Assembly (NCBI GenBank): GCA_946699065.1 | Contig: CAMPDV010001235.1 | Coordinates: 1 to 64,000 of the forward strand | Source: Loxodes magnus | Lineage: Eukaryota > Ciliophora > Karyorelictea > Loxodida > Loxodidae | Direction of reading: 5' to 3' | DNA: 64,000 nt | Shown here: piece after piece, positions 1 to 64,000 of the stretch | Position numbering within the stretch: position 1 is the stretch's first letter | Layout of the letters: each line of letters begins with the position of its first letter | Translations under genes and position numbers: made by a program | The notes under the pieces: model-generated | What the model saw: only the letters and a program-made list of their open reading frames with translations | What the model was told of the DNA's origin: nothing | Database searches by the model: none

Positions 1-1586
1 GCTGTGGCTATATCCAGTGATTCAGAGTTCATCGTATCGGGAAGTGCAGATAAGACGGTGAGACTATGGGACGTCAAGACAGGTACCTGTAAGACCATGA
101 GTGGTCACACTAGTTATGTATATGCTGTGGCTATATCCAGTGATTCAGAGTTCATCGTATCGGGAAGTGCAGATAAGACGGTGAGACTATGGGACGTCAA
201 GACAGGTACCTGTAAGACCATGAGTGGTCACACAGGTTAAGTATGATCTGTGGCTATATCCAGTGATTCAGAGTTCATCGTATCGGGAAGTGGAGATAAT
301 ACGGTGAGACTATGGGACGTCAAGACAGGTACCTGTAAGACCATGAGTGGTCACACTAATGTTTTATATGCTGTGGCTATATCCAGTGATTCAGAGTTCA
401 TCGTATCGGGAAGTTATGATAATACGGTGAGACTATGGGACGTCAAGACAGGTACCTGTAAGACCATGAGTGGTCACACTAATGTTTTATATGCTGTGGC
501 TATATCCAGTGATTCAGAGTTCATCGTATCGGGAAGTGGAGATAATACGGTGAGACTATGGGACGTCAAGACAGGTACCTGTAAGACCATGAGTGGTCAC
601 ACTAATGTTTTATATGCTGTGGCTATATCCAGTGATTCAGAGTTCATCGTATCGGGAAGTGCAGATAATACGGTGAGACTATGGGACGTCAAGACAGGTA
701 CCTGTAAGACCATGAGTGGTCACACTAATGTTTTATATGCTGTGGCTATATCCAGTGATTCAGAGTTCATCGTATCGGGAAGTGCAGATAAGACGGTGAG
801 ACTATGGGACGTCAAGACAGGTACCTGTAAGACCATGAGTGGTCACACTAGTTATGTATATGCTGTGGCTATATCCAGTGATTCAGAGTTCATCGTATCG
901 GGAAGTGCAGATAAGACGGTGAGACTATGGGACGTCAAGACAGGTACCTGTAAGACCATGAGTGGTCACACAGGTTAAGTATGATCTGTGGCTATATCCA
1001 GTGATTCAGAGTTCATCGTATCGGGAAGTGGAGATAATACGGTGAGACTATGGGACGTCAAGACAGGTACCTGTAAGACCATGAGTGGTCACACTAATGT
1101 TTTATATGCTGTGGCTATATCCAGTGATTCAGAGTTCATCGTATCGGGAAGTTATGATAATACGGTGAGACTATGGGACGTCAAGACAGGTACCTGTAAG
1201 ACCATGAGTGGTCACACTAATGTTTTATATGCTGTGGCTATATCCAGTGATTCAGAGTTCATCGTATCGGGAAGTGGAGATAATACGGTGAGACTATGGG
1301 ACGTCAAGACAGGTACCTGTAAGACCATGAGTGGTCACACTAATGTTTTATATGCTGTGGCTATATCCAGTGATTCAGAGTTCATCGTATCGGGAAGTGC
1401 AGATAATACGGTGAGACTATGGGACGTCAAGACAGGTACCTGTAAGACCATGAGTGGTCACACTAATGTTTTATATGCTGTGGCTATATCCAGTGATTCA
1501 GAGTTCATCGTATCGGGAAGTGCAGATAAGACGGTGAGACTATGGGACGTCAAGACAGGTACCTGTAAGACCATGAGTGGTCACAC
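1..1586 (+). repeat. Six-monomer higher-order repeat (738 bp)
   Basis: Bases 1-848 recur at 739-1586, an offset of 738 bp (6 x 123), with no difference noticed. The module order by residues 15-17 is GDN, YDN, GDN, ADN, ADK, ADK. The first four blades carry the T-N-V-L-Y-A loop, the fifth T-S-Y-V-Y-A, and the sixth ends in the TAA-GTA-TGA double stop (238 and 976). The third copy diverges in the loop of its fifth blade at about 1587. A recent tandem duplication by unequal exchange is inferred. Confidence 0.9.
247..978 (+). pseudogene. Six-blade open WD40 fragment
   Basis: Six consecutive in-frame blades lie between the TGA at 244-246 and the TAA at 976-978, all with an intact tetrad. There is no unique start region; the only ATGs are the internal Met32 codons present in most blades. 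The fragment is one complete copy of the 738-bp module. Six blades are one short of the usual seven-bladed propeller, so alone it would probably not close a ring. It is a piece of the array, not an independent gene. Confidence 0.6.
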
Positions 1587-3585
1587 TAATGTTTTATATG
1601 CTGTGGCTATATCCAGTGATTCAGAGTTCATCGTATCGGGAAGTGCAGATAATACGGTGAGACTATGGGACGTCAAGACAGGTACCTGTAAGACCATGAG
1701 TGGTCACACTAATGTTTTATATGCTGTGGCTATATCCAGTGATTCAGTGTTCATCGTATCGGGAAGTCATGATTATACGGTGAGACTATGGGACGTCAAG
1801 ACAGGTACCTGTAAGACCATGAGTGGTCACACTAATGTTTTATATGCTGTGGCTATATCCAGTGATTCAGAGTTCATCGTATCGGGAAGTGCAGATAAGA
1901 CGGTGAGACTATGGGACGTCAAGACAGGTACCTGTAAGACCATGAGTGGTCACACTAATGTTTTATATGCTGTGGCTATATCCAGTGATTCAGAGTTCAT
2001 CGTATCGGGAAGTGCAGATAATACGGTGAGACTATGGGACGTCAAGACAGGTACCTGTAAGACCATGAGTGGTCACACTAGTTATGTATATGCTGTGGCT
2101 ATATCCAGTGATTCAGAGTTCATCGTATCGGGAAGTGGAGATAATACGGTGAGACTATGGGACGTCAAGACAGGTACCTGTAAGACCATGAGTGGTCACA
2201 CTAATGTTTTATATGCTGTGGCTATATCCAGTGATTCAGAGTTCATCGTATCGGGAAGTGCAGATAATACGGTGAGACTATGGGACGTCAAGACAGGTAC
2301 CTGTAAGACCATGAGTGGTCACACTAATGTTTTATATGCTGTGGATATATCCAGTGATTCAGAGTTCATCGTATCGGGAAGTCATGATTATACGGTGAGA
2401 CTATGGGACGTCAAGACAGGTACCTGTAAGACCATGAGTGGTCACACTAATGTTTTATATGCTGTGGCTATATCCAGTGATTCAGAGTTCATCGTATCGG
2501 GAAGTGGAGATAATACGGTGAGACTATGGGACGTCAAGACAGGTACCTGTAAGACCATGAGTGGTCACACAGGTTATTTATATGCTGTGGCTATATCCAG
2601 TGATTCAGAGTTCATCGTATCGGGAAGTTATGATAAGACGGTGAGACTATGGGACGTCAAGACAGGTACCTGTAAGACCATGAGTGGTCACAGAGGTTAT
2701 TTATATGCTGTGGCTATATCCAGTGATTCAGAGTTCATCGTATCGGGAAGTTATGATAATACGGTGAGACTATGGGACGTCAAGACAGGTACCTGTAAGA
2801 CCATGAGTGGTCACACTAGTTATGTATATGCTGTGGCTATATCCAGTGATTCAGAGTTCATCGTATCGGGAAGTGCAGATAAGACGGTGAGACTATGGGA
2901 CGTCAAGACAGGTACCTGTAAGACCATGAGTGGTCACACTAGTTATGTATATGCTGTGGCTATATCCAGTGATTCAGAGTTCATCGTATCGGGAAGTTAT
3001 GATAAGACGGTGAGACTATGGGACGTCAAGACAGGTACCTGTAAGACCATGAGTGGTCACACTAGTTATGTATATGCTGTGGCTATATCCAGTGATTCAG
3101 AGTTCATCGTATCGGGAAGTGCAGATAAGACGGTGAGACTATGGGACGTCAAGACAGGTACCTGTAAGACCATGAGTGGTCACACACATTATGTATGTAC
3201 TGTGGCTATATCCAGTGATTCAGATTTCATCGTATCGGGAAGTTATGATAAGACGGTGAGACTATGGGACGTCAAGACAGGTACCTGTAAGACCATGAGT
3301 GGTCACAGAGGTTATTTATATGCTGTGGCTATATCCAGTGATTCAGAGTTCATCGTATCGGGAAGTTATGATAATACGGTGAGACTATGGGACGTCAAGA
3401 CAGGTACCTGTAAGACCTTGAGTGGTCACACACATTATGTATGTACTGTGGCTATATCCAGTGATTCAGAGTTCATCGTATCGGGAAGTGCAGATAATAC
3501 GGTGAGACTATGGGACGTCAAGACAGGTACCTGTAAGACCATGAGTGGACACACTAGTTATGTATATGCTGGCTATATCCAGTGA
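985..3585 (+). CDS. Longest open WD40 stretch, 21 blades (partial, no defined start)
   Basis: This is the longest uninterrupted reading frame in the window: exactly 21 blades between the TGA at 982-984 and the 2-bp deletion at 3570/3571, after which five codons lead to a TGA at 3583-3585. Twenty-one equals three seven-bladed propellers, although seven-blade grouping is not marked in the sequence. Blades 1-8 and 10-12 carry the T-N-V-L-Y-A loop; the last nine mix T-G-Y-L-Y-A, R-G-Y-L-Y-A, T-S-Y-V-Y-A and T-H-Y-V-C-T. Single variants include E8V at 1747-1749 and A2D in blade 12. No promoter, start-defining region or non-WD40 domain is present. It could be an internal exon of a larger WD40 gene, or a decayed fragment. 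Coding status is uncertain. Confidence 0.45.
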   Translation, partial: SVAISSDSEFIVSGSGDNTVRLWDVKTGTCKTMSGHTNVLYAVAISSDSEFIVSGSYDNTVRLWDVKTGTCKTMSGHTNVLYAVAISSDSEFIVSGSGDNTVRLWDVKTGTCKTMSGHTNVLYAVAISSDSEFIVSGSADNTVRLWDVKTGTCKTMSGHTNVLYAVAISSDSEFIVSGSADKTVRLWDVKTGTCKTMSGHTNVLYAVAISSDSEFIVSGSADNTVRLWDVKTGTCKTMSGHTNVLYAVAISSDSVFIVSGSHDYTVRLWDVKTGTCKTMSGHTNVLYAVAISSDSEFIVSGSADKTVRLWDVKTGTCKTMSGHTNVLYAVAISSDSEFIVSGSADNTVRLWDVKTGTCKTMSGHTSYVYAVAISSDSEFIVSGSGDNTVRLWDVKTGTCKTMSGHTNVLYAVAISSDSEFIVSGSADNTVRLWDVKTGTCKTMSGHTNVLYAVDISSDSEFIVSGSHDYTVRLWDVKTGTCKTMSGHTNVLYAVAISSDSEFIVSGSGDNTVRLWDVKTGTCKTMSGHTGYLYAVAISSDSEFIVSGSYDKTVRLWDVKTGTCKTMSGHRGYLYAVAISSDSEFIVSGSYDNTVRLWDVKTGTCKTMSGHTSYVYAVAISSDSEFIVSGSADKTVRLWDVKTGTCKTMSGHTSYVYAVAISSDSEFIVSGSYDKTVRLWDVKTGTCKTMSGHTSYVYAVAISSDSEFIVSGSADKTVRLWDVKTGTCKTMSGHTHYVCTVAISSDSDFIVSGSYDKTVRLWDVKTGTCKTMSGHRGYLYAVAISSDSEFIVSGSYDNTVRLWDVKTGTCKTLSGHTHYVCTVAISSDSEFIVSGSADNTVRLWDVKTGTCKTMSGHTSYVYAGYIQ

Positions 3586-4453
3586 TTCAGAGTTCATCGT
3601 ATCGGGAAGTGCAGATAAGACGGTGAGACTATGGGACGTCAAGACAGGTACCTGTAAGACCATGAGTGGTCACACAGGTTATTTATATGCTGTGGCTATA
3701 TCCAGTGATTCAGAGTTCATCGTATCGGGAAGTGCAGATAAGACGGTGAGACTATGGGACGTCAAGACAGGTACCTGTAAGACCATGAGTGGTCACACTA
3801 GTTATGTATATGCTGTGGCTATATCCAGTGATTCAGAGTTCATCGTATCGGGAAGTCATGATTATACGGTGAGACTATGGGACGTCAAGACAGGTACCTG
3901 TAAGACCATGAGTGGTCACACTAATGTTTTATATGCTGTGGCTATATCCAGTGATTCAGAGTTCATCGTATCGGGAAGTGCAGATAATACGGTGAGACTA
4001 TGGGACGTCAAGACAGGTACCTGTAAGACCATGAGTGGTCACACTAATGTTTTATATGCCGTGGCTATATCCAGTAATTCAGAGTTCATCGTATCGGGAA
4101 GTTATGATAAGACGGTGAGACTATGGGACGTCAAGACAGGTACCTGTAAGACCATGAGTGGTCACACTAATGTTTTATATGCTGTGGCTATATCCAGTGA
4201 TTCAGAGTTCATCGTATCGGGAAGTCATGATTATACGGTGAGACTATGGGACGTCAAGACAGGTACCTGTAAGACCATGAGTGGTCACACTAGTTATGTA
4301 TATGCTGTGGCTATATCCAGTGATTCAGAGTTCATCGTATCGGGAAGTGCAGATAATACGGTGAGACTATGGGACGTCAAGACAGGTACCTGTAAGACCA
4401 TGAGTGGTCACACAGGTTATTTATATGCTGTGGCTATATCCAGTGATTCATAG
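3572..4453 (+). pseudogene. Seven-blade open WD40 fragment after frameshift
   Basis: The WD40 frame resumes at 3572 after the 2-bp loss. It stays open for seven W-D cores (15-17 triplets ADK, ADK, HDY, ADN, YDK, HDY, ADN) and stops at a TAG that replaces Glu8 (4451-4453). Seven blades would suit one propeller, but there is no start region. The stop arises from gag to tag, a transversion. Part of this segment is duplicated at 7627-8222. Confidence 0.55.
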
Positions 4454-7258
4454 TTCATCGTATCGGGAAGTTATGATTATACGGTGAGACTATGGGACGT
4501 CAAGACAGGTACCTGTAAGACCATGAGTGGTCACACTAATGTTTTATATGCCGTGGCTATATCCAGTAATTCAGAGTTCATCGTATCGGGAAGTGCAGAT
4601 AATACGGTGAGACTATGGGACGTCAAGACAGGTACCTGTAAGACCATGAGTGGTCACACTAATGTTTTATATGCTGTGGCTATATCCAGTGATTCAGAGT
4701 TCATCGTATCGGGAAGTGCAGATAATACGGTGAGACTATGGGACGTCAAGACAGGTACCTGTAAGACCATGAGTGGTCACACTAGTTATGTATTATCTGT
4801 GGATATATCCAGTGATTCAGAGTTCATCGTATCGGGAAGTTATGATTAGACGGTGAGACTATGGGACGTCAAGACAGGTACCTGTAAGACCATGAGTGGT
4901 CACACAGGTTATTTATATGCTGTGGCTATATCCAGTGATTCAGAGTTCATCGTATCGGGAAGTTATGATAATACGGTGAGACTATGGGACGTCAAGACAG
5001 GTACCTGTAAGACCATGAGTGGTCACACAGGTTAAGTATGATCTGTGGCTATATCCAGTGATTCAGAGTTCATCGTATCGGGAAGTGCAGATAAGACGGT
5101 GAGACTATGGGACGTCAAGACAGGTACCTGTAAGACCATGAGTGGTCATACTAATGTTGTATATGCTGTGGCTATATCCAGTGATTCAGATTTCATCGTA
5201 TCGGGAAGTTATGATAAGACGGTGAGACTATGGGACGTCAAGACAGGTACCTGTAAGACCATGAGTGGTCACACAGGTTAAGTATGATCTGTGGCTATAT
5301 CCAGTGATTCAGAGTTCATCGTATCGGGAAGTGCAGATAAGACGGTGAGACTATGGGACGTCAAGACAGGTACCTGTAAGACCTTGAGTGGTCACACACA
5401 TTATGTATGTACTGTGGCTATATCCAGTAATTCAGAGTTCATCGTATCGGGAAGTGCAGATAAGACGGTGAGACTATGGGACGTCAAGACAGGTACCTGT
5501 AAGACCATGAGTGGTCACAGAGGTTATTTATATGCTGTGGCTATATCCAGTGATTCAGAGTTCATCGTATCGGGAAGTGCAGATAAGACGGTGAGACTAT
5601 GGGACGTCAAGACAGGTACCTGTAAGACCATGAGTGGTCATACTAATGTTGTATATGCTGTGGCTATATCCAGTGATTCAGAGTTCATCGTATCGGGAAG
5701 TTATGATTTGACGGTGAGACTATGGGACGTCAAGACAGGTACCTGTAAGACCATGAGTGGTCACACTAGTTATGTATATGCTGTGGCTATATCCAGTGAT
5801 TCAGAGTTCATCGTATCGGGAAGTTATGATTAGACGGTGAGACTATGGGACGTCAAGACAGGTACCTGTAAGACCATGAGTGGTCACACTAATGTTTTAT
5901 ATGCCGTGGCTATATCCAGTAATTCAGAGTTCATCGTATCGGGAAGTTATGATAAGACGGTGAGACTATGGGACGTCAAGACAGGTACCTGTAAGACCAT
6001 GAGTGGTCACACAGGTTAAGTATGATCTGTGGCTATATCCAGTGATTCAGAGTTCATCGTATCGGGAAGTGCAGATAATACGGTGAGACTATGGGACGTC
6101 AAGACAGGTACCTGTAAGACCATGAGTGGTCACACTAGTTATGTATTATCTGTGGATATATCCAGTGATTCAGAGTTCATCGTATCGGGAAGTTATGATT
6201 AGACGGTGAGACTATGGGACGTCAAGACAGGTACCTGTAAGACCATGAGTGGTCACACAGGTTATTTATATGCTGTGGCTATATCCAGTGATTCAGAGTT
6301 CATCGTATCGGGAAGTTATGATAATACGGTGAGACTATGGGACGTCAAGACAGGTACCTGTAAGACCATGAGTGGTCACACAGGTTAAGTATGATCTGTG
6401 GCTATATCCAGTGATTCAGAGTTCATCGTATCGGGAAGTGCAGATAAGACGGTGAGACTATGGGACGTCAAGACAGGTACCTGTAAGACCATGAGTGGTC
6501 ATACTAATGTTGTATATGCTGTGGCTATATCCAGTGATTCAGATTTCATCGTATCGGGAAGTTATGATAAGACGGTGAGACTATGGGACGTCAAGACAGG
6601 TACCTGTAAGACCATGAGTGGTCACACAGGTTAAGTATGATCTGTGGCTATATCCAGTGATTCAGAGTTCATCGTATCGGGAAGTGCAGATAAGACGGTG
6701 AGACTATGGGACGTCAAGACAGGTACCTGTAAGACCTTGAGTGGTCACACACATTATGTATGTACTGTGGCTATATCCAGTAATTCAGAGTTCATCGTAT
6801 CGGGAAGTGCAGATAATACGGTGAGACTATGGGACGTCAAGACAGGTACCTGTAAGACCATGAGTGGTCACAGAGGTTATTTATATGCTGTGGCTATATC
6901 CAGTGATTCAGAGTTCATCGTATCGGGAAGTGCAGATAAGACGGTGAGACTATGGGACGTCAAGACAGGTACCTGTAAGACCATGAGTGGTCATACTAAT
7001 GTTGTATATGCTGTGGCTATATCCAGTGATTCAGAGTTCATCGTATCGGGAAGTTATGATTTGACGGTGAGACTATGGGACGTCAAGACAGGTACCTGTA
7101 AGACCATGAGTGGTCACACTAGTTATGTATATGCTGTGGCTATATCCAGTGATTCAGAGTTCATCGTATCGGGAAGTGCAGATAAGACGGTGAGACTATG
7201 GGACGTCAAGACAGGTACCTGTAAGACCATGAGTGGTCACACAAGTTATGTATATGCT
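4454..7258 (+). pseudogene. Stop-interrupted WD40 array segment
   Basis: The frame is kept across about 23 blades but broken by TAGs at residue 17 (for example 4847-4849, 5831-5833, 6200-6202) and by TAA-GTA-TGA double stops starting at 5033, 5279, 6017, 6386 and 6632. The longest open part is 6641-7273, with five blades (ADK, ADN, ADK, YDL, ADK). The segment ends at the 2-bp deletion 7258/7259. Most of it is the 11-monomer duplication 4674-7177. Confidence 0.7.
4674..7177 (+). repeat. Eleven-monomer higher-order repeat (1353 bp)
   Basis: Bases 4674-5824 recur at 6027-7177 (offset 1353 = 11 x 123). Both copies contain the same series of interruptions and the T-N-V-V-Y-A and Y-D-L blades. One difference was seen: aag at 5461-5463 against aat in copy 2 at residue 17. 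Stops and intact blades were copied together. Confidence 0.88.
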
Positions 7259-10200
7259 GGCTATATCCAGTGATTCAGAGTTCATCGTATCGGGAAGTGC
7301 AGATAAGACGGTGAGACTATGGGACGTCAAGACAGGTACCTGTAAGACCATGAGTGGTCACAGAGGTTATTTATATGCTGTGGCTATATCCAGTGATTCA
7401 GAGTTCATCGTATCGGGAAGTTATGATAATACGGTGAGACTATGGGACGTCAAGACAGGTACCTGTAAGACCTTGAGTGGTCACACACATTATGTATGTA
7501 CTGTGGCTATATCCAGTGATTCAGAGTTCATCGTATCGGGAAGTGCAGATAATACGGTGAGACTATGGGACGTCAAGACAGGTACCTGTAAGACCATGAG
7601 TGGACACACTAGTTATGTATATGCTGGCTATATCCAGTGATTCAGAGTTCATCGTATCGGGAAGTGCAGATAAGACGGTGAGACTATGGGACGTCAAGAC
7701 AGGTACCTGTAAGACCATGAGTGGTCACACAGGTTATTTATATGCTGTGGCTATATCCAGTGATTCAGAGTTCATCGTATCGGGAAGTGCAGATAAGACG
7801 GTGAGACTATGGGACGTCAAGACAGGTACCTGTAAGACCATGAGTGGTCACACTAGTTATGTATATGCTGTGGCTATATCCAGTGATTCAGAGTTCATCG
7901 TATCGGGAAGTCATGATTATACGGTGAGACTATGGGACGTCAAGACAGGTACCTGTAAGACCATGAGTGGTCACACTAATGTTTTATATGCTGTGGCTAT
8001 ATCCAGTGATTCAGAGTTCATCGTATCGGGAAGTGCAGATAATACGGTGAGACTATGGGACGTCAAGACAGGTACCTGTAAGACCATGAGTGGTCACACT
8101 AATGTTTTATATGCTGTGGCTATATCCAGTAATTCAGAGTTCATCGTATCGGGAAGTTATGATAAGACGGTGAGACTATGGGACGTCAAGACAGGTACCT
8201 GTAAGACCATGAGTGGTCACACAGGTTAAGTATGATCTGTGGCTATATCCAGTGATTCAGAGTTCATCGTATCGGGAAGTGCAGATAATACGGTGAGACT
8301 ATGGGACGTCAAGACAGGTACCTGTAAGACCATGAGTGGTCACACAAGTTATGTATATGCTGGCTATATCCAGTGATTCAGAGTTCATCGTATCGGGAAG
8401 TGCAGATAAGACGGTGAGACTATGGGACGTCAAGACAGGTACCTGTAAGACCATGAGTGGTCACACAGGTTATTTATATGCTGTGGCTATATCCAGTGAT
8501 TCATAGTTCATCGTATCGGGAAGTTATGATTATACGGTGAGACTATGGGACGTCAAGACAGGTACCTGTAAGACCATGAGTGGTCACAGAGGTTATTTAT
8601 ATGCTGTGGCTATATCCAGTGATTCAGAGTTCATCGTATCGGGAAGTTATGATTAGACGGTGAGACTATGGGACGTCAAGACAGGTACCTGTAAGACCAT
8701 GAGTGGTCATACTAATGTTGTATATGCTGTGGCTATATCCAGTGATTCAGATTTCATCGTATCGGGAAGTTATGATTTGACGGTGAGACTATGGGACGTC
8801 AAGACAGGTACCTGTAAGACCATGAGTGGTCACACTAGTTATGTATTATCTGTGGATATATCCAGTGATTCAGAGTTCATCGTATCGGGAAGTTATGATT
8901 AGACGGTGAGACTATGGGACGTCAAGACAGGTACCTGTAAGACCATGAGTGGTCACACTAATGTTTTATATGCTGTGGCTATATCCAGTGATTCAGAGTT
9001 CATCGTATCGGGAAGTTATGATAATACGGTGAGACTATGGGACGTCAAGACAGGTACCTGTAAGACCATGAGTGGTCACACTAATGTTTTATATGCTGTG
9101 GCTATATCCAGTGATTCAGAGTTCATCGTATCGGGAAGTGCAGATAAGACGGTGAGACTATGGGACGTCAAGACAGGTACCTGTAAAACAATGAGTGGTC
9201 ACAGAGGTTATTTATATGCTGTGGCTATATCCAGTAATTCAGAGTTCATCGTATCGGGAAGTTATGATAAGACGGTGAGACTATGGGACGTCAAGACAGG
9301 TACCTGTAAGACCATGAGTGGTCACACAGGTTAAGTATGATCTGTGGCTATATCCAGTGATTCAGAGTTCATCGTATCGGGAAGTGCAGATAAGACGGTG
9401 AGACTATGGGACGTCAAGACAGGTACCTGTAAGACCTTGAGTGGTCACACACATTATGTATGTACTGTGGCTATATCCAGTAATTCAGAGTTCATCGTAT
9501 CGGGAAGTGCAGATAAGACGGTGAGACTATGGGACGTCAAGACAGGTACCTGTAAGACCATGAGTGGTCACACAAGTTATGTATATGCTGGCTATATCCA
9601 GTGATTCAGAGTTCATCGTATCGGGAAGTGCAGATAAGACGGTGAGACTATGGGACGTCAAGACAGGTACCTGTAAGACCATGAGTGGTCACACAGGTTA
9701 TTTATATGCTGTGGCTATATCCAGTGATTCATAGTTCATCGTATCGGGAAGTTATGATTATACGGTGAGACTATGGGACGTCAAGACAGGTACCTGTAAG
9801 ACCATGAGTGGTCACAGAGGTTATGTATATGCTGTGGCTATATCCAGTGATTCATAGTTCATCGTATCGGGAAGTTATGATTATACGGTGAGACTATGGG
9901 ACGTCAAGACAGGTACCTGTAAGACCATGAGTGGTCATACTAATGTTGTATATGCTGTGGCTATATCCAGTGATTCAGAGTTCATCGTATCGGGAAGTTA
10001 TGATTAGACGGTGAGACTATGGGACGTCAAGACAGGTACCTGTAAGACCATGAGTGGTCACACTAGTTATGTATTATCTGTGGATATATCCAGTGATTCA
10101 GAGTTCATCGTATCGGGAAGTTATGATTAGACGGTGAGACTATGGGACGTCAAGACAGGTACCTGTAAGACCATGAGTGGTCACACTAATGTTTTATATG

Positions 10201-12168
10201 CTGTGGCTATATCCAGTGATTCAGAGTTCATCGTATCGGGAAGTTATGATAATACGGTGAGACTATGGGACGTCAAGACAGGTACCTGTAAGACCATGAG
10301 TGGTCACACTAATGTTTTATATGCTGTGGCTATATCCAGTGATTCAGAGTTCATCGTATCGGGAAGTGCAGATAAGACGGTGAGACTATGGGACGTCAAG
10401 ACAGGTACCTGTAAAACAATGAGTGGTCACAGAGGTTATTTATATGCTGTGGCTATATCCAGTAATTCAGAGTTCATCGTATCGGGAAGTTATGATAAGA
10501 CGGTGAGACTATGGGACGTCAAGACAGGTACCTGTAAGACCATGAGTGGTCACACAGGTTAAGTATGATCTGTGGCTATATCCAGTGATTCAGAGTTCAT
10601 CGTATCGGGAAGTGCAGATAAGACGGTGAGACTATGGGACGTCAAGACAGGTACCTGTAAGACCTTGAGTGGTCACACACATTATGTATGTACTGTGGCT
10701 ATATCCAGTAATTCAGAGTTCATCGTATCGGGAAGTGCAGATAAGACGGTGAGACTATGGGACGTCAAGACAGGTACCTGTAAGACCATGAGTGGTCACA
10801 CAAGTTATGTATATGCTGGCTATATCCAGTGATTCAGAGTTCATCGTATCGGGAAGTGCAGATAAGACGGTGAGACTATGGGACGTCAAGACAGGTACCT
10901 GTAAGACCATGAGTGGTCACACAGGTTATTTATATGCTGTGGCTATATCCAGTGATTCATAGTTCATCGTATCGGGAAGTTATGATTATACGGTGAGACT
11001 ATGGGACGTCAAGACAGGTACCTGTAAGACCATGAGTGGTCACAGAGGTTATGTATATGCTGTGGCTATATCCAGTGATTCAGAGTTCATCGTATCGGGA
11101 AGTTATGATAATACGGTGAGACTATGGGACGTCAAGACAGGTACCTGTAAGACCATGAGTGGTCACACTAGTTATGTATATGCTGTGGCTATATCCAGTG
11201 ATTCAGAGTTCATCGTATCGGGAAGTTATGATAATACGGTGAGACTATGGGACGTCAAGACAGGTACCTGTAAGACCATGAGTGGTCACACTAGTTATGT
11301 ATTATCTGTGGATATATCCAGTGATTCAGAGTTCATCGTATCGGGAAGTTATGATTAGACGGTGAGACTATGGGACGTCAAGACAGGTACCTGTAAGACC
11401 ATGAGTGGTCACACTAGTTATGTATATGCTGTGGCTATATCCAGTGATTCAGAGTTCATCGTATCGGGAAGTTATGATAATACGGTGAGACTATGGGACG
11501 TCAAGACAGGTACCTGTAAGACCATGAGTGGTCACACTAATGTTTTATATGCTGTGGCTATATCCAGTGATTCAGAGTTCATCGTATCGGGAAGTGCAGA
11601 TAAGACGGTGAGACTATGGGACGTCAAGACAGGTACCTGTAAGACCATGAGTGGTCACACTAGTTATGTATATGCTGTGGCTATATCCAGTGATTCAGAG
11701 TTCATCGTATCGGGAAGTCATGATTATACGGTGAGACTATGGGACGTCAAGACAGGTACCTGTAAGACCATGAGTGGTCACACAGGTTAAGTATGATCTG
11801 TGGCTATATCCAGTGATTCAGAGTTCATCGTATCGGGAAGTGCAGATAAGACGGTGAGACTATGGGACGTCAAGACAGGTACCTGTAAGACCATGAGTGG
11901 TCACAGAGGTTATTTATATGCTGTGGCTATATCCAGTGATTCAGAGTTCATCGTATCGGGAAGTTATGATAATACGGTGAGACTATGGGACGTCAAGACA
12001 GGTACCTGTAAGACCTTGAGTGGTCACACACATTATGTATGTACTGTGGCTATATCCAGTAATTCAGAGTTCATCGTATCGGGAAGTGCAGATAAGACGT
12101 TGAGACTATGGGACGTCAAGACAGGTACCTGTAAGACCATGAGTGGTCACACAGGTTATTTATATGCT
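7259..12168 (+). pseudogene. Frameshift-rich WD40 array segment
   Basis: About 40 blades are broken by 2-bp deletions at 7625/7626, 8361/8362, 9589/9590, 10817/10818 and 12168/12169. There are four Glu8-to-TAG changes (8504-8506, 9732-9734, 9855-9857, 10960-10962) and double stops starting at 8227, 9332, 10560 and 11788. Open parts include 7627-8229 (five blades) and 11359-11790. The R-G-Y-V-Y-A loop occurs in this segment. No part can be translated for more than a few blades under the standard code. Confidence 0.7.
8779..11082 (+). repeat. Ten-monomer higher-order repeat (1228 bp)
   Basis: Bases 8779-9854 recur at 10007-11082. The offset is 10 x 123 minus 2, because each copy holds one 2-bp deletion (9589/9590 and 10817/10818). 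No internal difference was noticed over 1,076 bp. Each copy also carries one Glu8 TAG (9732 and 10960). The copies part at 9855, which is TAG in copy 1 and GAG at 11083 in copy 2. Confidence 0.88.

Positions 12169-14626: not shown

Positions 14627-14641
<15 letters not shown>
13448..14641 (+). pseudogene. Ten-blade open WD40 fragment
   Basis: Ten W-D cores are in frame between the TAG at 13445-13447 and the 2-bp deletion at 14626/14627, with a TGA at 14639-14641. It contains rare variants: K30R in the first blade, a T-G-Y-L-C-T loop, a T-I-Y-V-Y-A loop and a V19L blade. One CpG in the conserved GACGTC palindrome has become TpG near 14201. All tetrad residues are intact. There is no start region. 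Confidence 0.55.
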
Positions 14642-51217: not shown

Positions 51218-51248
51218 GTTATGTATGATCTGTGGCTATATCCAGTGA
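42251..51248 (+). pseudogene. Duplicated, stop-interrupted WD40 segment
   Basis: About 73 blades. Interruptions are mostly TAG (Y-D, V-D and T-N contexts), plus double stops starting at 43476 and 48392 and 2-bp deletions at 42628, 44594, 47544 and 49510. The longest open parts are 43971-44609 and its copy 48887-49525, five blades each (ADK, ADN, VDK, VDK, ADN), both ending in a T-C-Y-V-Y-A loop with the deletion. K25M blades occur near 45648 and 50564. D23N (W-N) and W22C blades first appear near 46501-46875. Confidence 0.72.
51217..51219 (+). other. One-base insertion at duplication edge (124-bp monomer)
   Basis: The loop reads cacacta then ggttatgtatgatct, one G more than the lone-TGA loop at 23464-23478. 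It looks like a join of a T-S-Y loop to the G-stop-V-stop loop type. It shifts the frame by one, and translation ends at a TGA at 51246-51248. It lies exactly where the 4.2-kb duplication ends. Confidence 0.8.
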
Positions 51249-53127: not shown

Positions 53128-56100
53128 ACGGTGAGACTATGGGACGTCAAGACAGGTACCTGTAAGACCATGAGTGGTCACACTAATGTTTTATATGCTG
53201 TGGCTATATCCAGTGATTCAGAGTTCATCGTATCGGGAAGTGTAGATAAGACGGTGAGACTATGGGACGTCAAGACAGGTACCTGTAAGACCATGAGTGG
53301 TCACAGAGGTTATTTATATGCTGTGGCTATATCCAGTAATTCAGAGTTCATCGTATCGGGAAGTTATGATTAGACGGTGAGACTATGGGACGTCAAGACA
53401 GGTACCTGTAAGACCTTGAGTGGTCACACACATTATGTATGTACTGTGGCTATATCCAGTAATTCAGAGTTCATCGTATCGGGAAGTGTAGATTAGACGG
53501 TGAGACTATGGGACGTCAAGACAGGTACCTGTAAGACCATGAGTGGTCACACTAGTTATGTATATGCTGTGGCTATATCCAGTGATTCAGATTTCATCGT
53601 ATCGGGAAGTGCAGATAAGACGGTGAGACTATGGGACGTCAAGACAGGTACCTGTAAGACCTTGAGTGGTCACACACATTATGTATGTACTGTGGCTATA
53701 TCCAGTAATTCAGAGTTCATCGTATCGGGAAGTTATGATTAGACGGTGAGACTATGGGACGTCAAGACAGGTACCTGTAAGACCATGAGTGTTCATACTA
53801 ATGTTGTATATGCTGTGGCTATATCCAGTGATTCAGATTTCATCGTATCGGGAAGTTATGATTTGACGGTGAGACTATGGGACGTCAAGACAGGTACCTG
53901 TAAGACCTTGAGTGGTCACACTAATTCTGTATTATCTGTGGATATATCCAGTAATTCAGAGTTCATCGTATCGGGAAGTTATGATTAGACGGTGAGACTA
54001 TGGGACGTCAAGACAGGTACCTGTAAGACCATGAGTGGTCACACTAATTCTGTATTATCTGTGGCTATATCCAGTGATTCAGAGTTCATCGTATCGGGAA
54101 GTGCAGATAATACGGTGAGACTATGGGACGTCAAGACAGGTACCTGTAAGACCATGAGTGGTCACACTAATTAGGTATATGCTGTGGCTATATCCAGTGA
54201 TTCAGAGTTCATCGTATCGGGAAGTCATGATTATACGGTGAGACTATGGGACGTCAAGACAGGTACCTGTAAGACCATGAGTGGTCACACTAGTTATGTA
54301 TATGCTGTGGCTATATCCAGTAATTCAGAGTTCATCGTATCGGGAAGTTATGATAAGACGGTGAGACTATGGGACGTCAAGACAGGTACCTGTAAGACCA
54401 TGAGTGGTCACACAGGTTATTTATATGCTGTGGCTATATCCAGTGATTCAGAGTTCATCGTATCGGGAAGTTATGATTAGACGGTGAGACTATGGGACGT
54501 CAAGACAGGTACCTGTAAAACCATGAGTGGTCACAGAGGTTATTTATATGCTGTGGCTATATCCAGTGATTCAGAGTTCATCGTATCGGGAAGTTATGAT
54601 AATACGGTGAGACTATGGGACGTCAAGACAGGTACCTGTAAAACCATGAGTGGTCACACTAGTTATGTATATGCTGTGGCTATATCCAGTGATTCAGAGT
54701 TCATCGTATCGGGAAGTGCAGATAAGACGGTGAGACTATGGGACGTCAAGACAGGTACCTGTAAAACCATGAGTGGTCACAGAGGTTATTTATATGCTGT
54801 GGCTATATCCAGTAATTCAGAGTTCATCGTATCGGGAAGTGTAGATAAGACGGTGAGACTATGGGACGTCAAAACAGGTACCTGTAAGACCATGAGTGGT
54901 CACAGAGGTTATTTATATGCTGTGGCTATATCCAGTGATTCAGAGTTCATCGTATCGGGAAGTAGAGATAAGACGGTGAGACTATGGAACGTCAAGACAG
55001 GTACCTGTAAGACCATGAGTGGTCACACTAGTTATGTATATGCTGTGGCTATATCCAGTGATTCAGAGTTCATCGTATCGGGAAGTTATGATAATACGGT
55101 GAGACTATGGGACGTCAAGACAGGTACCTGTAAAACCATGAGTGGTCACACTAGTTATGTATATGCTGTGGCTATATCCAGTGATTCAGAGTTCATCGTA
55201 TCGGGAAGTGCAGATAAGACGGTGAGACTATGGGACGTCAAGACAGGTACCTGTAAAACCATGAGTGGTCACACTAGTTATGTATATGCTGTGGCTATAT
55301 CCAGTGATTCAGATTTCATCGTATCGGGAAGTTATGATTAGACGGTGAGACTATGGGACGTCAAGACAGGTACCTGTAAGACCATGAGTGGTCACACTAA
55401 TGTTTTATATGCTGTGGCTATATCCAGTGATTCAGAGTTCATCGTATCGGGAAGTGTAGATAAGACGGTGAGACTATGGGACGTCAAGACAGGTACCTGT
55501 AAGACCATGAGTGGTCACAGAGGTTATTTATATGCTGTGGCTATATCCAGTAATTCAGAGTTCATCGTATCGGGAAGTTATGATAAGACGGTGAGACTAT
55601 GGGACGTCAAGACAGGTACCTGTAAGACCTTGAGTGGTCACACACATTATGTATTATCTGTGGATATATCCAGTAATTCAGAGTTCATCGTATCGGGAAG
55701 TGTAGATTAGACGGTGAGACTATGGGACGTCAAGACAGGTACCTGTAAGACCATGAGTGGTCACACTAGTTATGTATATGCTGTGGCTATATCCAGTGAT
55801 TCAGATTTCATCGTATCGGGAAGTGCAGATAAGACGGTGAGACTATGGGACGTCAAGACAGGTACCTGTAAGACCTTGAGTGGTCACACACATTATGTAT
55901 GTACTGTGGCTATATCCAGTAATTCAGAGTTCATCGTATCGGGAAGTTATGATTAGACGGTGAGACTATGGGACGTCAAGACAGGTACCTGTAAGACCAT
56001 GAGTGTTCATACTAATGTTGTATATGCTGTGGCTATATCCAGTGATTCAGATTTCATCGTATCGGGAAGTTATGATTTGACGGTGAGACTATGGGACGTC

Positions 56101-56979
56101 AAGACAGGTACCTGTAAGACCTTGAGTGGTCACACTAATTCTGTATTATCTGTGGATATATCCAGTAATTCAGAGTTCATCGTATCGGGAAGTTATGATT
56201 AGACGGTGAGACTATGGGACGTCAAGACAGGTACCTGTAAGACCATGAGTGGTCACACTAATTCTGTATTATCTGTGGCTATATCCAGTGATTCAGAGTT
56301 CATCGTATCGGGAAGTGCAGATAATACGGTGAGACTATGGGACGTCAAGACAGGTACCTGTAAGACCATGAGTGGTCACACTAATTAGGTATATGCTGTG
56401 GCTATATCCAGTGATTCAGAGTTCATCGTATCGGGAAGTCATGATTATACGGTGAGACTATGGGACGTCAAGACAGGTACCTGTAAGACCATGAGTGGTC
56501 ACACTAGTTATGTATATGCTGTGGCTATATCCAGTAATTCAGAGTTCATCGTATCGGGAAGTTATGATAAGACGGTGAGACTATGGGACGTCAAGACAGG
56601 TACCTGTAAGACCATGAGTGGTCACACAGGTTATTTATATGCTGTGGCTATATCCAGTGATTCAGAGTTCATCGTATCGGGAAGTTATGATTAGACGGTG
56701 AGACTATGGGACGTCAAGACAGGTACCTGTAAAACCATGAGTGGTCACAGAGGTTATTTATATGCTGTGGCTATATCCAGTGATTCAGAGTTCATCGTAT
56801 CGGGAAGTTATGATAATACGGTGAGACTATGGGACGTCAAGACAGGTACCTGTAAAACCATGAGTGGTCACACTAGTTATGTATATGCTGTGGCTATATC
56901 CAGTGATTCAGAGTTCATCGTATCGGGAAGTGCAGATAAGACGGTGAGACTATGGGACGTCAAGACAGGTACCTGTAAG
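52552..56979 (+). repeat. Direct tandem duplication of 18 monomers (2214 bp)
   Basis: Bases 52552-54765 are followed directly by a second copy at 54766-56979. Both contain the VDK-RDK(W-N)-YDN-ADK series, the S-V-H-T-N-V-V blade, T-N-stop and HDY blades. Differences include I/M at residue 32, Y-D-stop at 53371-53373 against YDK, and T-H-Y-V-C-T against T-H-Y-V-L-S with A2D. Related modules start at 58789 and 61126. Confidence 0.85.
54481..55341 (+). pseudogene. Seven-blade open WD40 fragment
   Basis: Seven cores (first after a TAG, then YDN, ADK, VDK, RDK with W-N, YDN, ADK) are open to the Y-D-stop at 55339-55341. It spans the junction of the two 2214-bp copies at 54765/54766, so it arose by the duplication itself, which joined an ADK blade to a VDK blade in frame. 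Confidence 0.55.
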
Positions 56980-57889
56980 ACCATGAGTGGTCACACAGGT
57001 TATTTATATGCTGTGGCTATATCCAGTGATTCAGAGTTCATCGTATCGGGAAGTTATGATTAGACGGTGAGACTATGGGACGTCAAGACAGGTACCTGTA
57101 AAACCATGAGTGGTCACACTAGTTATGTATATGCTGTGGCTATATCCAGTAATTCAGATTTCATCGTATCGGGAAGTTATGATTAGACGGTGAGACTATG
57201 GGACGTCAAGACAGGTACCTGTAAGACCTTGAGTGGTCACACACATTATGTATTATCTGTGGATATATCCAGTAATTCAGAGTTCATCGTATCGGGAAGT
57301 TATGATAAGACGGTGAGACTATGGGACGTCAAGACAGGTACCTGTAAGACCATGAGTGGTCACACTAGTTATGTATGTACTGTGGCTATATCCAGTGATT
57401 CAGAGTTCATCGTATCGGGAAGTTATGATAAGACGGTGAGACTATGGGACGTCAAGACAGGTACCTGTAAGACCATGAGTGGTCACACTAATTAGGTATA
57501 TGCTGTGGCTATATCCAGTGATTCAGAGTTCATCGTATCGGGAAGTCATGATTATACGGTGAGACTATGGGACGTCAAGACAGGTACCTGTAAGACCATG
57601 AGTGGTCACACTAGTTATGTATATGCTGTGGCTATATCCAGTGATTCAGAGTTCATCGTATCGGGAAGTGTAGATAAGACGGTGAGACTATGGGACGTCA
57701 AGACAGGTACCTGTAAGACCATGAGTGGTCACAGAGGTTATTTATATGCTGTGGCTATATCCAGTGATTCAGAGTTCATCGTATCGGGAAGTTATGATAA
57801 GACGGTGAGACTATGGGACGTCAAGACAGGTACCTGTAAGACCATGAGTGGTCACACTAGTTATGTATATGCTGTGGCTATATCCAGTA

Positions 57890-59760
57890 ATTCAGAGTTC
57901 ATCGTATCGGGAAGTGCAGATAAGACGGTGAGACTATGGGACGTCAAGACAGGTACCTGTAAGACCATGAGTGGTCACAGAGGTTATTTATATGCTGTGG
58001 CTATATCCAGTGATTCAGAGTTCATCGTATCGGGAAGTTATGATTAGACGGTGAGACTTTGTGACGTCAAGACAGGTACCTGTAAGACCTTGAGTGGTCA
58101 CACACATTATGTATGTACTGTGGCTATATCCAGTAATTCAGAGTTCATCGTATCGGGAAGTGTAGATAAGACGGTGAGACTATGGGACGTCAAGACAGGT
58201 ACCTGTAAGACCATGAGTGGTCACAGAGGTTATTTATATGCTGTGGCTATATCCAGTAATTCAGAGTTCATCGTATCGGGAAGTGTAGATAAGACGGTGA
58301 GACTATGGGACGTCAAAACAGGTACCTGTAAGACCATGAGTGGTCACAGAGGTTATTTATATGCTGTGGCTATATCCAGTGATTCAGAGTTCATCGTATC
58401 GGGAAGTAGAGATAAGACGGTGAGACTATGGAACGTCAAGACAGGTACCTGTAAGACCATGAGTGGTCACACTAGTTATGTATATGCTGTGGCTATATCC
58501 AGTGATTCAGAGTTCATCGTATCGGGAAGTTATGATAATACGGTGAGACTATGGGACGTCAAGACAGGTACCTGTAAAACCATGAGTGGTCACACTAGTT
58601 ATGTATATGCTGTGGCTATATCCAGTGATTCAGAGTTCATCGTATCGGGAAGTGCAGATAAGACGGTGAGACTATGGGACGTCAAGACAGGTACCTGTAA
58701 AACCATTAGTGGTCACACTAGTTATGTATATGCTGTGGCTATATCCAGTGATTCAGATTTCATCGTATCGGGAAGTTATGATTAGACGGTGAGACTATGG
58801 GACGTCAAGACAGGTACCTGTAAGACCATGAGTGGTCACACTAATGTTTTATATGCTGTGGCTATATCCAGTGATTCAGAGTTCATCGTATCGGGAAGTG
58901 TAGATAAGACGGTGAGACTATGGGACGTCAAGACAGGTACCTGTAAGACCATGAGTGGTCACAGAGGTTATTTATATGCTGTGGCTATATCCAGTAATTC
59001 AGAGTTCATCGTATCGGGAAGTTATGATTAGACGGTGAGACTATGGGACGTCAAGACAGGTACCTGTAAGACCTTGAGTGGTCACACACATTATGTATGT
59101 ACTGTGGCTATATCCAGTAATTCAGAGTTCATCGTATCGGGAAGTGTAGATTAGACGGTGAGACTATGGGACGTCAAGACAGGTACCTGTAAGACCATGA
59201 GTGGTCACACTAGTTATGTATATGCTGTGGCTATATCCAGTGATTCAGATTTCATCGTATCGGGAAGTGCAGATAAGACGGTGAGACTATGGGACGTCAA
59301 GACAGGTACCTGTAAGACCTTGAGTGGTCACACACATTATGTATGTACTGTGGCTATATCCAGTAATTCAGAGTTCATCGTATCGGGAAGTTATGATTAG
59401 ACGGTGAGACTATGGGACGTCAAGACAGGTACCTGTAAGACCATGAGTGTTCATACTAATGTTGTATATGCTGTGGCTATATCCAGTGATTCAGATTTCA
59501 TCGTATCGGGAAGTTATGATTTGACGGTGAGACTATGGGACGTCAAGACAGGTACCTGTAAGACCTTGAGTGGTCACACTAATTCTGTATTATCTGTGGA
59601 TATATCCAGTAATTCAGAGTTCATCGTATCGGGAAGTTATGATTAGACGGTGAGACTATGGGACGTCAAGACAGGTACCTGTAAGACCATGAGTGGTCAC
59701 ACTAATTCTGTATTATCTGTGGCTATATCCAGTGATTCAGAGTTCATCGTATCGGGAAGT
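57890..59760 (+). repeat. Copy of 52232-54102 (46-monomer offset, 5658 bp)
   Basis: Bases 52232-54102 match 57890-59760 (46 x 123). The block includes the W22C blade (58060-58062), the W-N blade and the S-V-H-T-N-V-V blade. At 59760/59761 the copy jumps over exactly one monomer (54103-54225 in the other copy) and continues with the HDY blade. Confidence 0.85.
58048..58785 (+). pseudogene. Six-blade open fragment, copy of 52390-53127
   Basis: This has the same six cores as 52390-53127 (RLCD, VDK, VDK, RDK with W-N, YDN, ADK) and the same M32I change, and is open to the Y-D-stop at 58783-58785. No difference was noticed, which points to very recent copying. Confidence 0.55.
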
Positions 59761-61125
59761 CATGATTATACGGTGAGACTATGGGACGTCAAGACAGGTA
59801 CCTGTAAGACCATGAGTGGTCACACTAGTTATGTATATGCTGTGGCTATATCCAGTAATTCAGAGTTCATCGTATCGGGAAGTTATGATAAGACGGTGAG
59901 ACTATGGGACGTCAAGACAGGTACCTGTAAGACCATGAGTGGTCACACAGGTTATTTATATGCTGTGGCTATATCCAGTGATTCAGAGTTCATCGTATCG
60001 GGAAGTTATGATAAGACGGTGAGACTATGGGACGTCAAGACAGGTACCTGTAAGACCATGAGTGGTCACACAGGTTATTTATATGCTGTGGCTATATCCA
60101 GTGATTCAGAGTTCATCGTATCGGGAAGTTATGATTAGACGGTGAGACTATGGGACGTCAAGACAGGTACCTGTAAAACCATGAGTGGTCACAGAGGTTA
60201 TTTATATGCTGTGGCTATATCCAGTGATTCAGAGTTCATCGTATCGGGAAGTTATGATTAGACGGTGAGACTATGGGACGTCAAGACAGGTACCTGTAAA
60301 ACCATGAGTGGTCACACTAGTTATGTATATGCTGTGGCTATATCCCGTGATTCAGATTTCATCGTATCGGGAAGTGCAGATAAGACGGTGAGACTATGGG
60401 ACGTCAAGACAGGTACCTGTAAAACCATGAGTGGTCACACTAGTTATGTATATGCTGTGGCTATATCCAGTGATTCAGAGTTCATCGTATCGGGAAGTGC
60501 AGATAAGACGGTGAGACTATGGGACGTCAAGACAGGTACCTGTAAAACCATGAGTGGTCACACAGGTTATTTATATGCTGTGGCTATATCCAGTGATTCA
60601 GAGTTCATCGTATCGGGAAGTTATGATTAGACGGTGAGACTATGGGACGTCAAGACAGGTACCTGTAAAACCATGAGTGGTCACAGAGGTTATTTATATG
60701 CTGTGGCTATATCCAGTGATTCAGAGTTCATCGTATCGGGAAGTTATGATAAGACGGTGAGACTATGGGACGTCAAGACAGGTACCTGTAAAACCATGAG
60801 TGGTCACAGAGGTTATTTATATGCTGTGGCTATATCCAGTGATTCAGAGTTCATCGTATCGGGAAGTTATGATAAGACGGTGAGACTATGGGACGTCAAG
60901 ACAGGTACCTGTAAAACCATGAGTGGTCACACTAGTTATGTATATGCTGTGGCTATATCCAGTGATTCAGAGTTCATCGTATCGGGAAGTGCAGATAAGA
61001 CGGTGAGACTATGGGACGTCAAGACAGGTACCTGTAAAACCATGAGTGGTCACACTAGTTATGTATATGCTGTGGCTATATCCAGTGATTCAGATTTCAT
61101 CGTATCGGGAAGTTATGATTAGACG

Positions 61126-62601
61126 GTGAGACTATGGGACGTCAAGACAGGTACCTGTAAGACCATGAGTGGTCACACTAATTTGGTATATGCTGTGGCT
61201 ATATCCAGTGATTCAGAGTTCATCGTATCGGGAAGTCATGATTATACGGTGAGACTATGGGACGTCAAGACAGGTACCTGTAAGACCATGAGTGGTCACA
61301 GAGGTTATTTATATGCTGTGGCTATATCCAGTAATTCAGAGTTCATCGTATCGGGAAGTTATGATTAGACGGTGAGACTATGGGACGTCAAGACAGGTAC
61401 CTGTAAGACCTTGAGTGGTCACACACATTATGTATGTACTGTGGCTATATCCAGTAATTCAGAGTTCATCGTATCGGGAAGTGTAGATTAGACGGTGAGA
61501 CTATGGGACGTCAAGACAGGTACCTGTAAGACCATGAGTGGTCACACTAGTTATGTATATGCTGTGGCTATATCCAGTGATTCAGATTTCATCGTATCGG
61601 GAAGTGCAGATAAGACGGTGAGACTATGGGACGTCAAGACAGGTACCTGTAAGACCTTGAGTGGTCACACACATTATGTATGTACTGTGGCTATATCCAG
61701 TAATTCAGAGTTCATCGTATCGGGAAGTTATGATTAGACGGTGAGACTATGGGACGTCAAGACAGGTACCTGTAAGACCATGAGTGTTCATACTAATGTT
61801 GTATATGCTGTGGCTATATCCAGTGATTCAGATTTCATCGTATCGGGAAGTTATGATTTGACGGTGAGACTATGGGACGTCAAGACAGGTACCTGTAAGA
61901 CCTTGAGTGGTCACACTAATTCTGTATTATCTGTGGATATATCCAGTAATTCAGAGTTCATCGTATCGGGAAGTTATGATTAGACGGTGAGACTATGGGA
62001 CGTCAAGACAGGTACCTGTAAGACCATGAGTGGTCACACTAATTCTGTATTATCTGTGGCTATATCCAGTGATTCAGAGTTCATCGTATCGGGAAGTGCA
62101 GATAATACGGTGAGACTATGGGACGTCAAGACAGGTACCTGTAAGACCATGAGTGGTCACACTAATTAGGTATATGCTGTGGCTATATCCAGTGATTCAG
62201 AGTTCATCGTATCGGGAAGTCATGATTATACGGTGAGACTATGGGACGTCAAGACAGGTACCTGTAAGACCATGAGTGGTCACACTAGTTATGTATATGC
62301 TGTGGCTATATCCAGTAATTCAGAGTTCATCGTATCGGGAAGTTATGATAAGACGGTGAGACTATGGGACGTCAAGACAGGTACCTGTAAGACCATGAGT
62401 GGTCACACAGGTTATTTATATGCTGTGGCTATATCCAGTGATTCAGAGTTCATCGTATCGGGAAGTTATGATTAGACGGTGAGACTATGGGACGTCAAGA
62501 CAGGTACCTGTAAAACCATGAGTGGTCACAGAGGTTATTTATATGCTGTGGCTATATCCAGTGATTCAGAGTTCATCGTATCGGGAAGTTATGATTAGAC
62601 G
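61126..62601 (+). repeat. Fourth copy of the right-end module
   Basis: The order Y-D-stop, T-H-Y-V-C-T, V-D-stop, T-S-Y, ADK, S-V-H-T-N-V-V, YDL, N-S-V-L-S, ADN, T-N-stop, HDY, YDK, T-G-Y matches 53131-54480 at an offset of 7995 bp (65 x 123). It differs at its start: the loop reads T-N-L-V-Y-A (ttg at 61183-61185), the only intact form seen of the common T-N-stop-V-Y-A loop. Confidence 0.8.
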
Positions 62602-62839
62602 GTGAGACTATGGGACGTCAAGACAGGTACCTGTAAAACCATGAGTGGTCACACTAGTTATGTATATGCTGTGGCTATATCCCGTGATTCAGATTTCATC
62701 GTATCGGGAAGTGCAGATAAGACGGTGAGACTATGGGACGTCAAGACAGGTACCTGTAAGACCTTGAGTGGTCACACACATTATGTATTATCTGTGGATA
62801 TATCCAGTAATTCAGAGTTCATCGTATCGGGAAGTTATG

Positions 62840-64000
62840 ATAAGACGGTGAGACTATGGGACGTCAAGACAGGTACCTGTAAGACCATGAGTGGTCACAC
62901 TAGTTATGTATGTACTGTGGCTATATCCAGTGATTCAGAGTTCATCGTATCGGGAAGTTATGATAAGACGGTGAGACTATGGGACGTCAAGACAGGTACC
63001 TGTAAGACCATGAGTGGTCACACTAATTAGGTATATGCTGTGGCTATATCCAGTGATTCAGAGTTCATCGTATCGGGAAGTCATGATTATACGGTGAGAC
63101 TATGGGACGTCATGACAGGTACCTGTAAGACCATGAGTGGTCACACTAGTTATGTATATGCTGTGGCTATATCCAGTGATTCAGAGTTCATCGTATCGGG
63201 AAGTTATGATAAGACGGTGAGACTATGGGACGTCAAGACAGGTACCTGTAAGACCATGAGTGGTCACACTAGTTATGTATATGCTGTGGCTATATCCAGT
63301 GATTCAGAGTTAATCGTATCGGGAAGTGCAGATAAGACGGTGAGACTATGGGACGTCAAGACAGGTACCTGTAAGACCATGAGTGGTCACACTAGTTATG
63401 TATATGCTGTGGCTATATCCAGTAATTCAGAGTTCATCGTATCGGGAAGTTATGATAAGACGGTGAGACTATGGGACGTCAAGACAGGTACCTGTAAGAC
63501 CATGAGTGGTCACACTAGTTATGTATGTACTGTGGCTATATCCAGTGATTCAGAGTTCATCGTATCGGGAAGTTATGATAAGACGGTGAGACTATGGGAC
63601 GTCAAGACAGGTACCTGTAAGACCATGAGTGGTCACACTAATTAGGTATATGCTGTGGCTATATCCAGTGATTCAGAGTTCATCGTATCGGGAAGTCATG
63701 ATTATACGGTGAGACTATGGGACGTCATGACAGGTACCTGTAAGACCATGAGTGGTCACACTAGTTATGTATATGCTGTGGCTATATCCAGTGATTCAGA
63801 GTTCATCGTATCGGGAAGTGTAGATAAGACGGTGAGACTATGGGACGTCAAGACAGGTACCTGTAAGACCATGAGTGGTCACAGAGGTTATTTATATGCT
63901 GTGGCTATATCCAGTGATTCAGAGTTCATCGTATCGGGAAGTAGAGATAAGACGGTGAGACTATGGAACGTCAAGACAGGTACCTGTAAGACCATGAGTG
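62840..64000 (+). repeat. Five-monomer repeat at the right edge (615 bp)
   Basis: The T-N-stops at 63028-63030 and 63643-63645 are 615 bp apart (5 x 123). Each is preceded by YDK and T-S-Y-V-C-T blades and followed by an HDY blade with K25M. The same series also occurs near 45139-45660 and 50055-50576. From 63646 the frame is open to the window edge through HDY, VDK and RDK (W-N) blades. Confidence 0.75.
63031..63645 (+). pseudogene. Five-blade open WD40 fragment
   Basis: Five cores (HDY with K25M, YDK, ADK, YDK, YDK) are open between T-N-stops. F9L occurs once (tta at about 63309-63311). No start region is present. Confidence 0.5.

Follow-up and report, generated by a model that had tools for sequence, protein, structure and literature searches.

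The window, by which we mean the whole 64,000-bp stretch of Loxodes magnus DNA that was analysed, comprises bases 1–64,000 of contig C1235 (122,313 bp) in an assembly of 705,730,643 bases and 7,843 contigs, and it consists from end to end of one repeated unit. Re-derivation of the monomer boundaries gave 521 anchors and 520 intervals (494 of 123 bp, 23 of 121 bp and one each of 93, 135 and 124 bp), as the first-pass annotation had counted them, and the copies lie head-to-tail with no unique base between them. Tandem Repeats Finder, which that annotation had proposed as a check, covered bases 1–64000, with periods of 246 and 369 over the whole window and with period 123 in two rows interrupted at ~30 kb; the sites GACGTC and GGTACC occur 514 and 516 times, respectively. 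The unit is indeed a WD40 blade: the monomer DNA translates as one (123 bp, equal to 41 codons), and the Pfam model PF00400 (WD40) matched 29 stretches in window bases 1–3501 under translation table 27 (E = 1.5e-300). The array had been said to continue past both edges; on the right it runs on to ~96,190 of the contig, while the left edge is contig base 1, beyond which an extension of the array is likely. From base 1 to ~96,190 (96.2 kb) there are 783 anchors and 782 intervals (731 of 123 bp, 48 of 121 bp and one each of 93, 135 and 124 bp), and an anchor search along the contig returned 788 anchors in total, the remaining five being those of a downstream gene, which we call gene 1 (Table 1). 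At its 3′ end the array stops short partway through a blade, AT-rich DNA takes over, and the divergent closing blades of the family genes are absent. The G+C content is ∼43–44% in the array and 24–28% at flank loci without a WD40 array (L013, L014 and L022). By eye, a reverse-transcriptase-like remnant lies at L012:3080–3560, ∼0.9 kb past the array end, and an AT-rich 80-bp tandem repeat is found at C1235:114,001–122,313 (L014), which is 3′ of gene 1.

Table 1. Location of the blade arrays, their length variants and the intact gene (window positions unless a contig, abbreviated C, is named)
Feature	Position	Strand	Remarks
WD40-blade tandem array, 521 monomers	1..64000	+	part of the 96.2-kb array
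Range of the 23 121-bp monomers	3502..49562	+	first start 3502, last start 49442
93-bp monomer, 30 bp shorter, in frame	29921..30013	+	interval re-derivation
135-bp monomer, 12 bp longer, in frame	37876..38010	+	interval re-derivation
124-bp monomer, 1 bp longer, frame-breaking	51162..51285	+	interval re-derivation
Longest in-frame run, window part	51286..64000	+	147 blades, contig 51,286–69,367
340 bp identical to gene 1 central blades	62684..63023	+	gene copy at contig 107,991–108,330 (L013:3991–4330)
Gene 1 (RING-like/pentapeptide/seven-blade WD40), intact	C1235:106,289 to ~108,710 (L013:2289–4710)	same strand as array	
Second-family arrays	C9:16–82 kb; C1503:12–105 kb; C119:698–737.5 kb; C6957; C1832:39–80 kb		beside kinase-WD40 gene

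The monomers are similar without being uniform, and 274 of the 782 in the whole array are distinct. The mean pairwise difference among 123-bp monomers is 7.4%, and it is nearly the same for neighbours (7.2%) and for monomers that stand 300 units apart (7.5%). Their order is partly blockwise, in that as many as 25 successive monomers recur unchanged at a lag of 25, and another duplicated block comprises 22 monomers at a lag of 40. The array is thus long, head-to-tail and homogeneous, as a satellite is.

The genetic code fits NCBI table 27, in which TAA and TAG encode Gln and TGA encodes Trp. Tubulin matches contain TAA and TAG in frame, and some contain TGA; one gene, which we take to be that of alpha-tubulin, is readable throughout with TAA as Gln. 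Moreover, gene 1 yields a complete WD40 propeller when TAA is read as Gln and TGA as Trp. Because all three triplets are sense codons here, the apparent stop codons of the array, for example the TAG at codon 39 in 156 of the 494 window monomers of 123 bp, are no argument against coding, and a case for decay of the array from such codons was ruled out. The tubulin-like matches form clusters at C64:619–934 kb and C441:147–175 kb, and nine of those on C441 follow one another at an exact spacing of 3,342 bp.

The WD40 frame is broken by 24 monomers in the window and by 49 of 782 in the whole array, and as a result of the 24 it occurs in all three phases across the window. Of the 23 monomers of 121 bp in the window, 22 carry an identical 2-bp loss (GCTGTGGCT -> GCTGGCT) and the one at 30014 carries a different 2-bp loss, each of them shifting the frame; in the whole array, 47 of the 48 share the common loss. 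A 20-mer that includes this loss has 49 copies in the assembly, of which 47 are on C1235 and one each on C333 and C6526; hence the frame-broken unit was multiplied inside the C1235 array, and so private a variant shows that this array evolved on its own. We also counted rare alleles, defined by a frequency of ≤2% among the 731 monomers of 123 bp, with the other 51 intervals excluded. In the whole array there are 13 silent and 35 replacement alleles, where the same mutation spectrum predicts 11.6 and 36.4; neutrality also fits the counts in the window (7 silent and 28 replacement, 8.2 and 26.8 expected) and in the longest in-frame run (4 and 10, 2.9 and 11.1 expected). For the array as a whole, the counts reject a constraint as strong as that of the family genes (0.24; P = 2.5e-5 for at least 35 replacements) and also one of 0.33 (P = 1.6e-3); a value of 1.0 fits, and constraint at half strength (0.5) is not rejected (P = 0.06). 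The commonest rare change is G>T, with 10 of the 48 distinct alleles.

A 29-bp core of the monomer has 163,553 + 193,290 = 356,843 exact copies in the assembly, its reversed control has 0, and the core pattern has no match in viral_contigs. At 123 bp each, these cores amount to 43.9 Mb, which is 6.2% of all assembled bases. An exact core is present in 411 of 521 window monomers and at 576 of the 783 array anchors; from this, the assembly total is likely to be 450,000–485,000 copies, or 56–60 Mb, provided that the other arrays are alike. These are counts in the assembly and not counts per cell or read depth, and by this measure the repeat has the very high genomic copy number of a satellite. 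The first 100 core matches listed are on C2, C3 and C4, in addition to those counted on C1235. According to the portions of the genome report used here (PMC11441545), the macronuclear assembly of L. magnus has 706 Mbp, is read with table 27 and contains 231 Mbp of tandem ‘low-complexity’ repeats, a class to which the C1235 array should belong. The main text of that report never mentions WD40 (0 occurrences), and its passages on these repeats that we draw upon do not name their identity. The same portions give a k-mer genome estimate of ∼261 Mbp that does not count high-copy repeats, and attribute the difference in size between MIC and MAC to misassembled low-complexity repeats.

Gene 1, ∼10 kb downstream of the array end, opens with a RING-like segment (a RING finger below the Pfam cut-off), followed by a long, Gln-rich middle part that is coiled-coil-like by eye, by pentapeptide repeats above the cut-off and by seven WD40 blades. 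A Pfam scan of its N-terminal part found no NACHT (or NB-ARC) domain. Three of its four central blades are identical to array monomers over 123 bp and the fourth has 1 mismatch in 123, while the unit that follows them differs from its nearest array monomer at 72 of 123 positions. When the four blades are taken together, their best match in the array has 14 mismatches in 492 bp, and array stretches differ among themselves by a mean of 9 (sd 7.8). The first 270 residues of gene 1 gave 142 scored matches in the genome, itself included (from 2,122 first-look candidates), and 140 of them span at least positions 2–265 in one match; the RING-like/pentapeptide/seven-blade WD40 genes are a large family in this ciliate. 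A paralogue, gene 2 (C2:231–234 kb), has the same seven-blade plan, and in a third family gene, on C142, for which the part covered starts with the last central blades and includes the gene end, the closing blades are the same; divergent closing blades terminate all three genes. About three blades stand by themselves as an orphan at C2:248 kb, at a distance of 16 kb from gene 2, and the 2.9-kb stretch around them contains no gene by eye and none of the N-terminal matches of gene 1. Of the 142 matches, 85 are on the minus strand and 57 on the plus strand, with median distances from the contig start of 20.8 versus 114.5 kb (P = 1e-8); members of the family thus tend to be directed towards contig ends. 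Long WD40 arrays (giant genes) were considered as a cause of this orientation and rejected for the two contig ends covered, those of C142 and C43, neither of which has a blade array: C142:1–1300 contains the closing blades and end of the gene and then AT-rich DNA that is 70% similar to that behind gene 1, and C43:1–300 (L041) contains an AT-rich repeat of 92 and 184 bp that is related to the 80-bp repeat at the C1235 end.

The comparison of gene 1 with gene 2 separates the central blades from the rest of the protein. In the N-terminal part dS is 0.865 and in the closing blades 0.786, with a dN/dS of 0.24 in both, whereas in the central blades dS is 0.106 and dN/dS is 1.27; for this one gene pair, and on rounded counts, the silent-site contrast between central blades and rest gives P = 7e-16 (Fisher). 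Low dS combined with high dN/dS indicates that exchange keeps the central blades uniform while replacement differences persist. In the array, minor residues exceed 10% (a threshold of our own choice) at 10 of 41 codons, and among these are six of the seven codons (P = 3e-4) equivalent to the variable positions 10, 11, 12, 14, 30, 32 and 39 of the fungal HNWD repeats, in a register that we set by hand on what we take to be the WD40 landmarks. It thus looks as if the array had inherited its variants from propellers that were hypervariable. When gene 1 is compared with gene 2 over their first three blade pairs, 11 replacement differences are on the seven codons and 12 on the other 34, so that such differences are enriched at the hypervariable codons, yet not confined to them. 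The seven positions are those reported as hypervariable in near-identical HNWD repeats, in the part of PMC12222747 that we rely on.

Arrays of blades are present elsewhere in the assembly. On C4, 93 core places of the same blade family are among the matches listed (2,225,729 to 2,243,846); four frame offsets of +2 each are all within the first 3 kb of this array, the next 15 kb are in register, and it begins ≤∼1 kb past a decayed kinase-WD40 copy. A second blade family, of 126 bp, derives from kinase-WD40 genes, and its core has 4,454 exact copies in the assembly. In the parts covered, the arrays of this second family are mostly in frame: frame-breaking intervals number 0 of 126 on C6957, 0 of 105 at C1503:90–104.6 kb, 0 of 46 at C1832:74–80 kb, 4 of 308 at C119:698–737.5 kb and 19 of 150 in parts of C9. 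Loss of frame is thus established for the C1235 array but not for all arrays. The rare variants of the C9 array lean towards silent changes (8 silent and 9 replacement, 4.3 and 12.7 expected; P = 0.049). The flanks of the C9 and C1503 arrays are 96% identical over 6 kb. There are two loci at which a gene was seen to stand beside an array, gene 1 on C1235 and the kinase-WD40 gene on C9 with its 96%-identical copy on C1503; at both, the array ends ∼10 kb upstream of the intact gene and on the same strand. A third blade sequence, AIALSNDTKWIVSGSGDRTIRVWDFNTGSCTRTLIGHENWVV (126 bp), is also arrayed, at C272:354–360 kb (L029), and WD40 matches on C272 begin at 276 kb.

Taken together, we consider that the window is probably a piece of a very abundant and largely non-coding satellite of this karyorelict ciliate, and that the satellite was born from a hypervariable WD40 gene family, with which it is perhaps still exchanging sequence. 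The monomer would have come from one of the homogenised central blades of the RING-like/pentapeptide/WD40 genes, since whole blades are identical in gene and array, and unequal exchange within each array may then have multiplied it into long arrays and duplicated whole blocks. Most copies would no longer be read as protein, and the variable codons of the array would be the fossil trace of variation that was diversifying the propellers from which it came. Short pieces may have moved elsewhere too, the orphan near gene 2 and the C4 array just past a decayed kinase-WD40 copy being candidates. The same course of events may apply to the other arrays.

The first-pass annotation had implied one WD40 protein of about 74 propellers, and in the corresponding alternative a single enormous protein gene begins outside the contig and the array is its enlarged WD40 region. 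The purity of the blade sequence, the in-frame run of 147 blades and the mostly in-frame arrays of the second family are what such a gene would need, and with its apparent stops being sense codons nothing in table 27 would halt translation. Against this, one ORF with gene ends was not found within the contig: the frame is broken 24 times in the window and 49 times over the array in full, the rare variants are near-neutral, closing blades are absent at the 3′ end, the copy number of 356,843 cores is satellite-like, and both family genes that were read whole, gene 1 and gene 2, have seven blades each. We therefore regard the giant gene as very improbable. A shorter giant product from the 147-blade run is, strictly, still conceivable, and some of the array may be translated. 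The same observations, that table 27 forces no stop and that the run stays in frame, also weigh against a largely non-coding satellite, and so do the half-strength constraint that was not rejected, the register of the C4 array over 15 kb, the mostly in-frame arrays of the second family, the lean to silent changes on C9 and a copy number counted in an assembly with suspected misassembly. Misassembly bears on a different point, because real blade arrays may have had their length and copy number inflated. The genome authors themselves suspect misassembled low-complexity repeats, their k-mer estimate of ∼261 Mbp leaves out high-copy repeats, C1235 starts within an array, C119 and C1503 end within theirs, and array lengths taken from the assembly may be wrong. 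Yet the many distinct monomers and the array-private variants argue for real DNA, the listed core places are spread over C2, C3 and C4 besides C1235, and we hold inflation to be an unlikely explanation.

A more active role for the satellite was weighed as well, in which propeller genes in use have their central blades converted by a silent library, so that the framework is kept uniform while surface residues are swapped. The low dS of the central blades relative to both ends of the protein, the 340 bp shared by gene 1 and the window, and the position of an array ∼10 kb upstream of an intact gene on the same strand at two loci would all be in keeping with it. However, exchange among the genes alone would homogenise silent sites equally well with no satellite donor, only one gene pair contributes to the contrast, and no donor tract with breakpoints was found. 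Moreover, the best array match of gene 1 is no closer to it than array stretches are to each other, replacement differences also fall outside the hypervariable codons, and on C4 the array, in the part covered, follows a decayed kinase-WD40 copy and does not precede a gene. Such a reservoir hence seems rather doubtful to us, and the wider proposal, that a satellite of 44–60 Mb is kept or is working as a genome-wide library that feeds RING-like/pentapeptide/WD40 recognition genes by gene conversion, is less probable still. If true, a single-celled organism would owe the diversity of its protein-based recognition to a non-coding satellite.

Near-identical WD40 blades, amplification of propellers from single blades and expansions of protein repeats in ciliates are all known already. 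In the fungal HNWD genes (het-d, het-e) the WD40 repeats have high internal conservation, according to the parts of PMC12222747 and PMC4986451 used here; the Loxodes blades resemble them in being near-identical, in varying at six of seven equivalent positions and in combining concerted evolution with replacement change. They differ from them in that a functional HNWD allele typically carries 11 repeats within a HET/NACHT gene, as those portions describe, whereas no NACHT or HET domain was found in gene 1 and its blade has turned into a satellite with copies in the hundreds of thousands. The sections consulted of PMC9218822 describe highly repetitive propellers that arose by amplification of one blade, mention propellers disrupted by frameshifts or stops, and include a method for non-coding propeller fragments. 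Single-blade amplification is common to these and to the Loxodes array, but as far as those sections go the propellers are within single genes, and in Loxodes the amplification went far beyond a propeller and is apparently extragenic. Expansions of protein repeats are known in Tetrahymena (PMC6564038, in the passages drawn on), and as in Loxodes they involve units in tens of thousands of copies, ectopic recombination and a LINE-like element that is often nearby; there, in contrast, the units are in genes with introns and most are under purifying selection, while Loxodes has gapless arrays with broken frames.

We found no earlier report of a WD40-blade satellite in the open-access literature. 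The origins of satellite DNA are rarely visible, and in this case a unit of protein can still be recognised in the monomer, with the likely parental gene intact on the same contig. This makes testable both the passage of a coding repeat into a satellite and the feedback of a satellite into genes. The finding would also identify, if the assembly counts hold, ∼19% of the tandem-repeat fraction (231 Mbp) of this genome, which is known for having no extensive DNA elimination. Among solved structures, seven array blades match 2ymu best (E = 6.4e-120), and that structure is of a ‘WD-40 repeat protein’.
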